Source: Thermoplasmata archaeon (GTDB lineage Archaea > Thermoplasmatota > Thermoplasmata > Lutacidiplasmatales > UBA184). From it: a stretch of 40,102 nt of DNA. The first letter of the stretch is position 1. Every line of letters begins with the position of its first letter. The position numbers and the translations under genes were made by a program. The stretch covers positions 1 to 40,102 of the forward strand of contig JAKAYL010000004.1 of assembly GCA_021809545.1 (NCBI GenBank), given 5' to 3'. Shown piece by piece: positions 298-22,352 of this stretch. The notes beneath the pieces were generated by a model. It searched no databases and was not told where the DNA came from. It saw nothing but the letters and a program-made list of their open reading frames with translations.

Positions 298-894
298 TCA
301 GGTCGCTGAGGAGGTAGCGGTCCCCAAGATGTGGGTCACTTTACCGTATTCGGAAGACACCAGGCGGTCTTCTCTGCGGCCGCATCGGGTGCAAACAAGT
401 TTGTTCTCCGACAGATGGGCAAGAGGGGCGTGGCATTCCTGGCAGCGAGCGGAAACGACCCCGAGGTCGTGACCCACGGTGGTGAGCTTGACGGCAGGGT
501 ATCCCGAGAGGATCTTTGCCTTGATCATGTCTCCCACGGCAAACTCCTTCTCCAAGCGGTCCACGAAGGAGTCTTTCGCCTTGGAGATGTGGACGGTGCC
601 GTCCGGGTAGCCTGGGACAACCCTGCCGTTGACGGCAGAGCAAAGCACGGTGGTCACGAGCAGCATGGGCTTGATCTCCTCTACCCGTGCATAGACAACG
701 TCCCCTTCTGAGACGTGGGGGATCTCGTGGATCGCCTTCACCGATACGGTCTTGCTCTCGGATTCGACCTGGGGGTACCCCATGACGGAGGCGTAGATGG
801 CGCCCTTGTACTCGTACGTTCCGCGACCCGGCGCGAGCTCTTCGGCCGTCCCGAGGGGTTCCCCGGGTAGCACTAGTCCCTTGGTTTCCTTCAT
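298..894 (-). CDS. csl4: Exosome complex RNA-binding protein Csl4
   Basis: This is the Csl4 cap subunit of the archaeal RNA exosome, which binds RNA over the Rrp41/Rrp42 ring and helps recruit substrates and the DnaG-type cofactor. The roughly 198-residue protein has the family layout: an N-terminal domain opening with VLPGEPLGTAEEL, a central S1 RNA-binding domain and a C-terminal zinc ribbon with cysteines in CQECHAPL and CTRCG. I chose ATG at 894 because it forms an ATGA overlap with the stop of the upstream methylase and has AGGAAG about ten bases before it. A GTG at 918 would add eight residues that do not resemble the family. It is the last gene of the minus-strand cluster. Pairing with an RNA methylase fits an RNA-metabolism operon. 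Confidence 0.93.
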   Translation of the reverse strand: MKETKGLVLPGEPLGTAEELAPGRGTYEYKGAIYASVMGYPQVESESKTVSVKAIHEIPHVSEGDVVYARVEEIKPMLLVTTVLCSAVNGRVVPGYPDGTVHISKAKDSFVDRLEKEFAVGDMIKAKILSGYPAVKLTTVGHDLGVVSARCQECHAPLAHLSENKLVCTRCGRREDRLVSSEYGKVTHILGTATSSAT

Positions 895-1523
895 TGCTTT
901 ATCTTCCTGAGAATCCACCGGTCAACAATCACCTTCCCTCGTCGTTGCGTATGGTGCGCAAAGACGGCAGGGAAAGGCCACTCTAACCTCACGTGTTCCT
1001 CGACTTTCAGATGGTGGGAGACAACGAGTTTCGCTATAAACTTTTGTGCCGCAGGGCCGGCAAAAAGGTAGAGGGCCCCTCCGGGAACCACGACCTCCGC
1101 CCCCGCTTCCAGAAAGGGAATCACTGCACCGTGTTTCTGGACTCCGAAGGGGGGGTTCATGAGCACTGTATCGGCCTCTGGGAGCGGGCTCTCTCCGACC
1201 CGGCCCTCGGACCAAGTGACGACGACTCCGGATCTCCGGGCATTCTCCCGAGCGATCTCTAGCACGGAGGCGTCGGTGTCGATCCCAGTGACCATTGAAG
1301 CCCCCAGCAGCGCAGCACCGATGGCAAGGATCCCGGGACCACAGCCGAGATCCAGGACCCGCTGACCGAAGAGATCACCCCTAAGGTGGGCTTCCCAGAG
1401 AAGCTTGCTCGCCTCTTCCGGCGCGGTCGGGACCTGTTCGAGGGCGGGACGGTTCGTGGCGAAAGTTTGGAGCTTTGACAGGGCAAGCGTGAGACTGGAG
1501 ACTCTCCACTGTTGGCGGGTCAT
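891..1523 (-). CDS. METTL5-like RNA N6-adenine methyltransferase
   Basis: A 210-residue Rossmann-fold methylase of the COG2263/METTL5 group. The SAM-binding motif VLDLGCGPGILAIGA lies near residue 56, and the catalytic NPPFG motif of N6-adenine methylases follows in VLMNPPFGVQKHG. The N-terminal stretch ending in LEQVPTAPEEASKLLWEA matches the family, whose human member methylates a single adenosine of 18S rRNA. A small-subunit rRNA target is therefore inferred. The only usable in-frame start upstream of the conserved region is ATG at 1523. Its A is also the discriminator base of the upstream tRNA-Leu, and no Shine-Dalgarno precedes it. The stop overlaps the csl4 start as ATGA. Confidence 0.9.
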   Translation of the reverse strand: MTRQQWRVSSLTLALSKLQTFATNRPALEQVPTAPEEASKLLWEAHLRGDLFGQRVLDLGCGPGILAIGAALLGASMVTGIDTDASVLEIARENARRSGVVVTWSEGRVGESPLPEADTVLMNPPFGVQKHGAVIPFLEAGAEVVVPGGALYLFAGPAAQKFIAKLVVSHHLKVEEHVRLEWPFPAVFAHHTQRRGKVIVDRWILRKIKQ

Positions 1524-1637
1524 GCGGGGAGTCGGATTTGAACCGACGAACGCCTTACGCGACGGGATCGCTTCGTTGGAGGACTCTGTCTTCCCACTCT
1601 TAAGTCCCGCGCCGTTTCCTGGCTTGGCTATCCCCGC
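1523..1637 (-). tRNA. tRNA-Leu (UAA anticodon), intron-containing
   Basis: The minus strand folds as a type II tRNA. The acceptor GCGGGGA (1637-1631) pairs with TCCCCGC (1530-1524), and the discriminator is A at 1523. The D arm is GCC/GGC around a loop containing AAGCCAGG. The anticodon stem CGGGA/TCCCG flanks loop CTTAAGA, giving anticodon TAA. A 15-nt variable arm and T arm GTCGG-TTCAAAT-CCGAC complete the fold. Thirty extra bases interrupt the anticodon loop after position 37. CCA is not encoded. The variable arm and discriminator A73 are typical of archaeal tRNA-Leu. It lies 11 bases after the PRC-barrel stop with no TATA box of its own, so it is probably cotranscribed. Confidence 0.95.
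1569..1598 (-). other. tRNA-Leu intron at position 37/38
   Basis: Thirty bases separate anticodon-loop base G37 from A38, the canonical archaeal intron site cut by the tRNA splicing endonuclease. Removing them restores a seven-base loop and a five-pair anticodon stem. The exact ends are inferred by placing the three-base bulge CGA next to the 3' stem. The central helix of the bulge-helix-bulge would have three good pairs (CTT with AAG) and one A-G mismatch, so it is a relaxed motif. Confidence 0.75.
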
Positions 1638-1648
1638 TCCAGATGAGC

Positions 1649-1963
1649 TTACCTCCGGGACGGAGGAGCGGCAGGGGCCGCTGCGGGGGGTGCAGCCCTA
1701 GGGGGAGGCGGGGGAGACCGCTTCATGGAGACTCTCTTGGGGAAGTACTTCAGGAGGACGATGTCGTTCACGGCGGAAACCCACCGGAAGGGCACATTGA
1801 CACTGGCCGAGTCCTCGACCAGGAGCTGGTTGCTCTCGGCGACGAAGATCCCGTCCACCTTGGCGTTTTCAATGTCCACTACAACATTGGATACGTCCCC
1901 GAGGAGCCGGGCATCGTTTGTGTAGACCTGCCTTCCTATGATCTCCGTCAGTTCGACGAGCAT
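1649..1963 (-). CDS. PRC-barrel domain protein with Pro/Ala-rich tail
   Basis: A 104-residue protein. Residues 1 to about 78 form a PRC-barrel, the small beta-barrel found in RimM and photosynthetic reaction-centre subunit H. Recognisable parts are LTEIIGRQVYTNDARLLG, VVVDIENAKVDGIFV and the closing VPFRWVSAVNDIVLL. Archaeal stand-alone PRC-barrel proteins are common but their role is uncertain; RNA processing and cell division have both been proposed. The last ~25 residues are almost only Pro, Ala, Ser and Arg, a flexible basic tail. The start is ATG at 1963, 27 bases after the ligase stop. Its stop is only 11 bases from the mature 5' end of tRNA-Leu. Confidence 0.85.
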   Translation of the reverse strand: MLVELTEIIGRQVYTNDARLLGDVSNVVVDIENAKVDGIFVAESNQLLVEDSASVNVPFRWVSAVNDIVLLKYFPKRVSMKRSPPPPPRAAPPAAAPAAPPSRR

Positions 1964-1990
1964 ATGGGGCCCGGAAGACGCGCTAGCTGT

Positions 1991-3772
1991 TTAAGGTTTT
2001 GGGGGTTCCTCGACGTGCCGTACCTGGCTCGTGTACATACGCACCGCCTCCCCGACGGTCGTCGCCTCCTCCGCCCCCTTGTCGTCACGCAGCCTCCCAG
2101 TGAACCGGGGGAACCGGAGGGCGAGGCCGTACCCTTCCCGGATGAGCCCGGTGGCGGCGGTGTGAACGGGGGAGAGGGAGAGCTCCGCTCCCCGGAGTTC
2201 CAGCACGATCTCAGGGTCCACCCAGACGTCGGGGGCAAATCCCGATTCCACGCTGGGAGGTCTGGCCGTCAGCGCCGCGTTGGTGAGCCGCTGGGTGAGG
2301 GACGCCAGCGTCTCTTCATCGAATCCCGTCCCGACCTTGCACAAGGTGGAGAAGCACTCCCGGTCGGGATCGTAAAGGGCCATCAGGAAGGCCCCGTACC
2401 ATTGCGCACGCTTCCCTCTCCCCCGGTAGGCGCCGACAATCACGGCGTCGATCGTATCGGAGAGCTCCTGGGTGTACTCGCGCTTGTACTTGATCCAGAG
2501 GAAGCCTCGTCCGCCGGCTTTGTACCGGGAATCCGGAGCAAGGGACTTGGCCACTACCCCTTCGCATCCGTCGGTGAGGGCCTTCTGGAAGAATCTCTCA
2601 GCCTCCGGGAGCTCCGAGACGATCTCCCGGGTAGCGAAGTCGACAGCGCTGCTCGTGCGAGTGAGCTTCTCAAGCCGTTCCCTGCGTTCGGGGTACGGCT
2701 TCGGGAGAAGAGACTCGGTTCCCTCGAGAAGAAGATCGAAGAGGAAGACCTCCACGGGGATCTCCGTCGCGATCCGCTCAAGGTCGTACTTTCGGCCCCT
2801 CCGTCGAGAGATCTCTTGGAAGGGGCGAAGCTCTCCCGTTTCCGGATCCACGGGGACGCACTCCCCTTCCACGATGACCGGAAGGGTTCGGAAGGCTCCC
2901 TTGAGGGCAGCGACCACATCCGGGAACTGCGAGCTCAGGTCTTCGAGGCGCCGGGAGAAGATCTTGACGTTCCCGTCCCGGTCAACATGGACCTGCACTC
3001 GGAGCCCGTCATACTTGTATTCGAGGGCCATCTTGCCCCCCATCCGGTCGAGGACCTCCTGCAGGCTCCGTTCCCGTTCCGCCAACATGGGTCGGACAGG
3101 TTTCCCGAGTGCGACCGTGACCGCTTCAAGTCCCTTGAGCCCTCCTTCCCGGAGGAGCGTTCCTATCTCGCCCAGGTCGGGATCCATGTTGAAGGCGTTC
3201 TCGATGGTCCCGCGGGCCAGCTTGAAGTCCCCCTCACCGTAGATCTCCGCAAGAGCATCGAGAAGTGTCATCTCCTTGACCCCGAGGCGCAACTTTCCCA
3301 GCAGGAACCGCACCAGGTGCTTTGCCTCCACCGGGGAGGTTCGGGTGAGGAGGATGGCGATGGCTCCCGTCTTGCCTTCCTGGGAACCTTCTCCCGTGGT
3401 AGAGCCGATCTTCCGTAGCGTGTCGTAGGTCTCTGAAAGCTCGAGCGGGCGACCCTCCTCCAGGACCTGTCTGCCGGAGAGCACCTTGAAGGCGCTCTCT
3501 CCCATGTCCCCGGTGGCACGGACCTCCTCCTTGAGACGGCCTTCGTCCATGTGTGCGGCCGTGGCGAGCGCCTTCAGAACGAGGGCGTCCCCCACTCCCA
3601 GTTCCACTCCCTCGTACTCCGGGCGTAGCTGACCCTGGAGCATGTAGAGGGCCGGGGGTATGTCCTCCGGGTCAAGCTTCCGGAGGAACTCCGAGAGAAA
3701 GGAGCGAATCTCCAACCGCTTGGTCACTTGGGAAATGCGCTCGCAGGCTTCCGCGAACTCCCGGTACTTCAT
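1991..3772 (-). CDS. lig: ATP-dependent DNA ligase
   Basis: Replicative archaeal DNA ligase that seals nicks using ATP, 593 residues, within the usual 550-610 range. The order is an N-terminal DNA-binding domain (1 to ~215), an adenylation domain and a C-terminal OB fold. Motif I is EYKYDGLR with the adenylated lysine near residue 253. It is followed by SRRLEDLSSQFPD (Ia), IVEGECV (III), VFLFDLL (IIIa), EGVVAKS (IV) and LWIKYKREY (V). All catalytic residues look intact. The start is ATG at 3772, which overlaps the stop of the upstream rpe gene as ATGA. The two are translationally coupled although they belong to different pathways. Confidence 0.96.
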   Translation of the reverse strand: MKYREFAEACERISQVTKRLEIRSFLSEFLRKLDPEDIPPALYMLQGQLRPEYEGVELGVGDALVLKALATAAHMDEGRLKEEVRATGDMGESAFKVLSGRQVLEEGRPLELSETYDTLRKIGSTTGEGSQEGKTGAIAILLTRTSPVEAKHLVRFLLGKLRLGVKEMTLLDALAEIYGEGDFKLARGTIENAFNMDPDLGEIGTLLREGGLKGLEAVTVALGKPVRPMLAERERSLQEVLDRMGGKMALEYKYDGLRVQVHVDRDGNVKIFSRRLEDLSSQFPDVVAALKGAFRTLPVIVEGECVPVDPETGELRPFQEISRRRGRKYDLERIATEIPVEVFLFDLLLEGTESLLPKPYPERRERLEKLTRTSSAVDFATREIVSELPEAERFFQKALTDGCEGVVAKSLAPDSRYKAGGRGFLWIKYKREYTQELSDTIDAVIVGAYRGRGKRAQWYGAFLMALYDPDRECFSTLCKVGTGFDEETLASLTQRLTNAALTARPPSVESGFAPDVWVDPEIVLELRGAELSLSPVHTAATGLIREGYGLALRFPRFTGRLRDDKGAEEATTVGEAVRMYTSQVRHVEEPPKP

Positions 3773-22037: not shown

Positions 22038-22352
22038 TACCAGGCCGTCCGGGTGGACGCACCGCAGTGGAGGTTGTGTTCCAGCCAGCATTCTCGATCC
22101 CGGTTTTCCTTCAGCGCCGGTATGTCACGGTAGGGCTGCTCCCGTCAGGACCTCGCCTGGTTCCCGCAATGGATAACCGCTAGGGTTTCCCTCCGGAAAC
22201 CCGTCACGGTGCAGCCGGCCCGAAGGGTCGGGATTGTCACCGAATTTTCTGACTGGCAACCTTCATCGCGTTACGCCGCCCCGGACTCTCGCCCCCACTG
22301 AAGACGATTTTGGTGTATAAGGGGACGCCTAACCCCCCGGCCAAGCCTGGCG
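22038..22352 (-). ncRNA. Archaeal signal recognition particle 7S RNA
   Basis: The 435-nt gap between pan and the next gene holds SRP RNA on the minus strand. Its helix 3/4 module (GGCCGGGGGGTTAGGCGTCC, 22342-22323) matches the archaeal 5' domain. The SRP54-binding helix 8 is clear: CCAGGCGAGGTCCTGACGGG followed by AGCAGCC (about 22160-22133), with the conserved loop and asymmetric bulge. The ends pair as helix 1, CCAGGC (22350-22345) with GCCTGG (22045-22040). The resulting ~315 nt is the normal archaeal size. The 5' end fits the TATA box at 22373-22380. Exact ends are uncertain by several bases. Confidence 0.92.

Follow-up and report, generated by a model that had tools for sequence, protein, structure and literature searches.

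A tRNA-Leu(UAA) gene shares its discriminator base with the start codon of a METTL5 gene in one clade of Thermoplasmata archaea

The window analyzed here is a 40,102-nt stretch of a Thermoplasmata archaeon (assembly GCA_021809545.1, contig JAKAYL010000004.1). On its minus strand lie, in the order PRC-barrel (CdpB-like)–tRNA-Leu–METTL5–csl4, four genes whose arrangement is found across the family. The PRC-barrel gene (1649..1963, 104 aa; Pfam PRC, PDB 8qzo and 8onw) has a stop codon that ends 11 nt 5′ of the first base of the tRNA. The tRNA-Leu(UAA) gene occupies 1523..1637, with G1 at 1637 and discriminator base A73 at 1523, and contains a 30-nt intron after position 37 (1569..1598, minus strand; ARAGORN i(40,30)). 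ARAGORN calls it with intron detection on and misses it under default settings, while Rfam RF00005 returns the same coordinates at 43.2 bits. Its cloverleaf, long variable arm, UAA anticodon, A73, and intron at 37/38 are kept through the family, and the intron varies in length. When the tRNA and its flanks were folded, the cloverleaf arms appeared, with a stability no higher than that of shuffled sequences. Farther along the window, on the same strand, is an archaeal SRP RNA gene (22038-22352; Rfam RF01857, 142 bits).

By similarity to solved structures, the ORF at 891..1523 (minus strand, 210 aa) is an archaeal METTL5, an rRNA N6-adenosine methyltransferase: phmmer matches include PH1948 (1wy7, 8.7e-25), human METTL5 (9ohl/6h2u, 6e-21), and TA1320 (1ne2), the similarity spans residues 7-201, starting at residue 7, and the NPPF motif is present as MNPPFG. 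An enzyme of this class would be expected to methylate, together with TRMT112, the 16S rRNA adenosine equivalent to human 18S A1832. We predict 16S rRNA m6A methylation for the window protein; Haloferax METTL5 has been reported to make m6A1432 of 16S rRNA (PMC8481954). Directly downstream, the gene for exosome subunit Csl4 (298..894, minus strand; NCBIfam Csl4, 1.7e-47) overlaps the METTL5 stop codon with its own ATG as ATGA (junction AAAGCAATGAAGG), and csl4 adjoins METTL5 in 85/86 family loci. One genus, g7 (G010, G015, G020, each >90% complete), gave no METTL5 match at E ≤ 1e-15 and keeps the PRC–tRNA-Leu linkage.

The original prediction held that A73 of the tRNA is also the first base of the METTL5 start codon, and ARAGORN, Rfam, and a direct reading of the minus strand agree on this to the base. 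The junction reads ...GACTCCCCGC-A-TGACCCGCC (with longer left context, TCCGACTCCCCGC-A-TGACCCGCC), and the METTL5 ATG occupies 1521..1523. That this is the gene's only plausible ATG was also borne out. Upstream of it the METTL5 frame stays open across the entire tRNA up to a TAG near 1700, and a scan from 1523 back to that TAG found no ATG, GTG, or TTG, leaving the ATG at 1523-1521 as the only standard start. Besides tRNA-Leu(UAA), one other tRNA in the window's genome has an ATG at N73: tRNA-Val(GAC) (L199, G000:C36:116910-116982) also ends A73-TG and opens an 82-codon ORF.

Comparison across the family indicates that the exact overlap is real and is a derived trait conserved in one clade of three genera. 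The 3′ end of the tRNA could be read in 79 family loci. Nine of these come from a clade of genera g1-g3 (SH-aLRT 96 in a METTL5 tree from which the N-terminus was left out), and METTL5 proteins of the clade share about 47-59% identity with that of the window. Eight of these nine genomes read CCCCGC|ATG at the tRNA end, with tRNA and METTL5 ORF sharing the base on one strand across species, and the ninth (G004, L005) reads ATCGTG (ATC GTG). Among the 70 other loci, TG follows N73 in two, neither of which serves as the METTL5 start (Fisher p 1.5e-8, relatedness ignored), so the match of A73 to an ATG is no chance event. In those 70 loci METTL5 mostly starts at GTG or ATG, a median of 57 nt 3′ of the tRNA. 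Distances from A73 to the METTL5 core are all multiples of 3 in the clade (33, 33, 51, 33, 63, 117, 120, 78, and 129 nt), whereas elsewhere in the family they fall in all three frames (33, 23, and 14 loci). Conservation of the overlap in relatives, to which the original prediction had looked, therefore holds within the clade, in eight of nine genomes and in the same frame, but does not extend to about 70 relatives in which the genes are adjacent yet separated.

METTL5 codons 6-12 are kept as protein in three species of one genus (G000, G003, G001) with synonymous changes (AGT/TCA for Ser, CTC/TTG for Leu, TGG invariant), and none of the three has an alternative start before these codons. The METTL5 start codon of the sister genera aligns with the Trp codon inside this segment. 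Together, these observations indicate that the clade lost an ancestral start and that the ORF was extended to the ATG at A73, which is probably used. Its use is less certain in G006 and G011 (L008 and L009), which keep an in-frame downstream ATG, preceded by GGGGGAGG or a GGAG stretch, that could be the true start. In-frame GTGs in METTL5 of L025 likewise count against use of the A73 ATG. The first 45 nt after A73 are identical in L008 and L009; we rejected RNA constraint as the reason, since this near-identity extends over most of both genes.

Transcription signals point to a promoter before the PRC gene. The only strong TATA-like element found in the locus is CCTTAAA at 1990..1996 (minus strand), −33..−27 from the PRC ATG. 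Over 73 loci there is an AT-rich box (0.71) at about −42 from the PRC ATG, and the maximum A/T count in an 8-mer before PRC is 6-7 in 71/73. Upstream of tRNA-Leu, AT content at −36..−30 is 0.30, vs. 0.58 for other tRNAs of the window's genome, and no TATA-like element was found before tRNA-Leu or at the right distance before the METTL5 ATG. For METTL5 of the other genera, AT content rises slightly at −30 (0.48, a weak bump), so these genes may once have had a weak promoter of their own. In the overlap clade, −36..−18 from METTL5 is tRNA sequence with 22-39% AT; a METTL5 promoter within the tRNA was rejected, a TATA-like box being absent. With the sole strong TATA-like signal before PRC, tRNA-Leu and METTL5 are likely co-transcribed, which favors the shared precursor that the original prediction presupposed; no TATA-like sign of an internal promoter was found.

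What cleavage would do to such a transcript can be predicted from the known enzymes. The window's genome encodes tRNase Z (342 bits), and two archaeal RNase Z enzymes cut after N73 (100% in one, 70% in the other), act on intron-containing pre-tRNAs, and need a mature 5′ end (PMC7479834). We infer the same cleavage after A73 in this organism. The reading that we prefer is that tRNA-Leu(UAA) sits inside a protein operon transcribed mainly from the promoter before PRC, and that METTL5 of the clade lost an ancestral start 20-70 nt past the tRNA and adopted the ATG formed by A73 and the next two bases. Excision by RNase P and tRNase Z would then release the tRNA together with a METTL5-csl4 RNA that begins at UG and lacks a start codon. 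Synthesis of METTL5, and with it of the coupled Csl4, would depend on transcripts that evade tRNase Z or have not yet been cut by it, and tRNA release and METTL5 translation would be mutually exclusive for each molecule. We give this reading, which builds on the overlap, the reading frame, and the tRNase Z gene as seen in sequence, a rough probability of 0.58. If tRNA and METTL5 share one transcript, the either/or outcome is likely. The proposal that one precursor yields either tRNA or methylase is thus a plausible prediction from overlap, promoter signals, and tRNase Z; any regulatory use is inferred, and a regulated switch, with METTL5 levels set by the choice of tRNase Z, is hypothetical. 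Because a Shine-Dalgarno sequence cannot precede an ATG in the acceptor end of a tRNA, ribosomes may initiate only weakly on uncut RNA.

Other accounts of the overlap do without this exclusivity. METTL5 could be translated from a leaderless transcript beginning at or near A73, making the overlap a harmless capture of a start codon, a matter of compaction with no regulatory meaning. Its confinement to three genera would suit this account, as would the weak bump in the sister genera, since −30 is the distance of a leaderless promoter. In the clade itself, however, the corresponding interval (−36..−18) is tRNA of 22-39% AT with no TATA-like box and is restricted by the tRNA fold, and we consider the account rather unlikely. 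Alternatively, the ATG at A73 may go unused, with METTL5 starting on the tRNase Z product at a nonstandard codon or at an internal start. Better placed internal ATGs do exist in L008 and L009, and the window METTL5 has a GGAGAG-like stretch at codons 6-8. However, five clade loci (L001, L004, L006, L007, L010) have no other standard start between A73 and the core, save a TTG at codon 11 in L004; moreover, codons 6-12 are kept as protein, and in all nine genomes the METTL5 frame is in phase with A73. Nonuse of the ATG therefore appears improbable.

An arrangement like that of mitochondria would require a cut 5′ of A73, leaving a leaderless AUG-mRNA and a tRNA that lacks A73 and is completed without a template. 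We know of no A73-restoring tRNA editing in archaea. Human mt-tRNA-Tyr and other mitochondrial tRNAs do regain A73 in this way, although a review describes such editing as not known in prokaryotes (PMC4284800), and the archaeal RNase Zs characterized so far cut after N73 (PMC7479834). The base itself varies in a manner that might hint at repair: N73 of tRNA-Leu(UAA) is T in 13/79 loci (L016, L021, L023, L027, L130, L138, L143, L147, L149, L152, L156, L163, L170), and A73 is present in the remaining Leu isoacceptors that ARAGORN called in G009 and G063. Yet neither G nor C ever occupies N73 although the genomes are GC-rich; this restriction to A and T points to a templated base under constraint, and we regard repair as highly improbable.

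The operon context and its UUA codon go beyond the original prediction. PRC and tRNA-Leu are linked in all family loci with a readable PRC 3′ flank, with METTL5 next in nearly all, and the gap between PRC stop and tRNA is 1-20 nt in 74/75 loci, mostly 3-8 nt. In G004 (L238/L005) the PRC frame even enters the tRNA by 10 nt and stops at the tRNA's own U8-A9-G10. PRC and tRNA remain together in G028 and G081, in which METTL5 has been relocated. PRC followed by tRNA-Leu(UAA) was not seen in 14 genomes read outside the family. The best PDB matches of the PRC protein, 8qzo (3.3e-13) and 8onw (2.5e-10), are titled just "PRC-barrel domain-containing protein"; we take both to be CdpB entries, and the tRNA-linked gene is thus putatively CdpB. 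CdpB1 and CdpB2 are PRC-barrel proteins that act in division in Haloferax (PMC12186497).

The tRNA-linked PRC gene contains exactly one TTA (UUA) codon in 71/75 loci (family loci L004-L170 and L235-L270), and the decoder of UUA is the tRNA-Leu(UAA) directly 3′ of it. In the same loci TTA occurs in 5/16948 codons of METTL5, 0/10913 of csl4, and 1/11953 of the ligase gene, so that among Leu codons it is ~60-fold enriched in PRC relative to these neighbors. Enrichment does not exceed about 2-fold for any other codon that occurs in PRC; the second rank of TGT merely reflects the absence of Cys from PRC. From a genomic background of 0.95 (G009) and 0.48 (G000) UUA per 1000 codons, taken from crude gene calls over about 400 kb per genome, 0.05-0.1 UUA would be expected per PRC gene. 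A PRC paralogue examined in 20 genomes has no TTA in 1521 codons. The usual position is Leu48, with TTA elsewhere at 9, 29, 39, 47, 70, 71, 96, 101, 102, or 104, and the position has changed at least 11 times on the tree. TTA48 is absent in 13 lineages, nine of which have TTA elsewhere in PRC (p about 5e-7 at 10% background, with lineages grouped by our own judgment). The PRC gene of G028 has two adjacent TTA codons, and PRC genes without any are those of the window's genome, L020, L026, L028, G010, and G015. Around the window tRNA, a count over five genes gave a single TTA, at METTL5 codon 180 (984..986, minus strand). A role of TTA48 as a promoter element was rejected, given that the distance between TTA and tRNA varies between about 26 and 279 nt, as was general AT drift in PRC, given the ≤ about 2-fold enrichment of its other codons and the TTA-free paralogue.

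This retention of UUA is the strongest sign that the operon is regulated through its own tRNA, and it suggests that decoding of UUA in PRC could control release of the decoder. With the PRC stop so near the tRNA, a terminating ribosome should, judging by ribosome size, cover the RNase P site. The operon might then be a self-sensing circuit in which the PRC UUA senses the Leu-tRNA(UAA) of the same transcript and ribosome position gates tRNA maturation, a tentative reading that we think possible but doubtful. Ribosomes finishing PRC would come to rest 3-8 nt short of the tRNA and thereby obstruct RNase P. Under a shortage of the tRNA, ribosomes would stall at UUA, leaving the tRNA free to fold and mature until supply is restored. 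In the overlap clade, tRNA maturation would also end production of METTL5 and Csl4. For sensing, UUA could stand anywhere upstream, which fits its observed wandering.

Another tRNA closely followed by the gene of an RNA-modifying enzyme occurs in the window's genus: in three genomes, tRNA-Gly(CCC) is followed after 11-39 nt by tgtA, which encodes archaeosine transglycosylase (L188, G000:C23:8283-9266; L328; L329). The other genera that were checked do not show this pairing.

Should the overlap work as we infer, each transcript would have to supply either a tRNA or, together, an enzyme that modifies the ribosome and a subunit of the exosome. A nonexhaustive literature search found no description of such a link between tRNA maturation and ribosome biogenesis in archaea. 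The UUA pattern matters more than the overlap, since a nearly purged codon is kept, singly and family-wide, 5′ of its own decoder; if self-sensing is true, a tRNA operon would be reading its own product.

Known systems share parts of this arrangement. In bacterial tRNA-mRNA operons such as thrU-tyrU-glyT-thrT-tufB, tRNAs are co-transcribed with a downstream protein gene, but unlike in tRNA-Leu–METTL5 the start codon is not overlapped. Streptomyces bldA is likewise a tRNA-Leu(UAA) from a GC-rich genome with very few UUA codons, and, with its rare TTA codons sitting in regulatory genes, it is placed to limit particular genes, as tRNA-Leu(UAA) may be here. A bldA-like pattern, with UUA rare genome-wide and present in the candidate gene, fits the family but not the PRC gene of the window's genome. 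Unlike in the bldA system, UUA here lies in the gene directly 5′ of the tRNA, in the same transcription unit, and could sense its own tRNA. In animal mitochondria, too, a single A within one polycistronic RNA is both discriminator and first base of the next gene, as in human tRNA-Tyr/tRNA-Cys, which share A73, but there the downstream RNA keeps the A and the tRNA has to be repaired (PMC4284800). In Alphaproteobacteria, a tRNA-Sec gene is nested in selB, and processing and protein expression have been proposed as alternatives (Mukai 2021, PMC8124441); exclusivity there and in tRNA-Leu/METTL5 is in both cases predicted from sequence. The same study describes a tRNA-Sec whose end falls at −2 relative to the start codon of a selA gene. 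The selB tRNA occupies the 3′ end of its protein gene, unlike the tRNA-Leu of our locus, but as here tRNA and ORF share bases, and the in-frame overlap is conserved within a clade while the two genes are separated in relatives.
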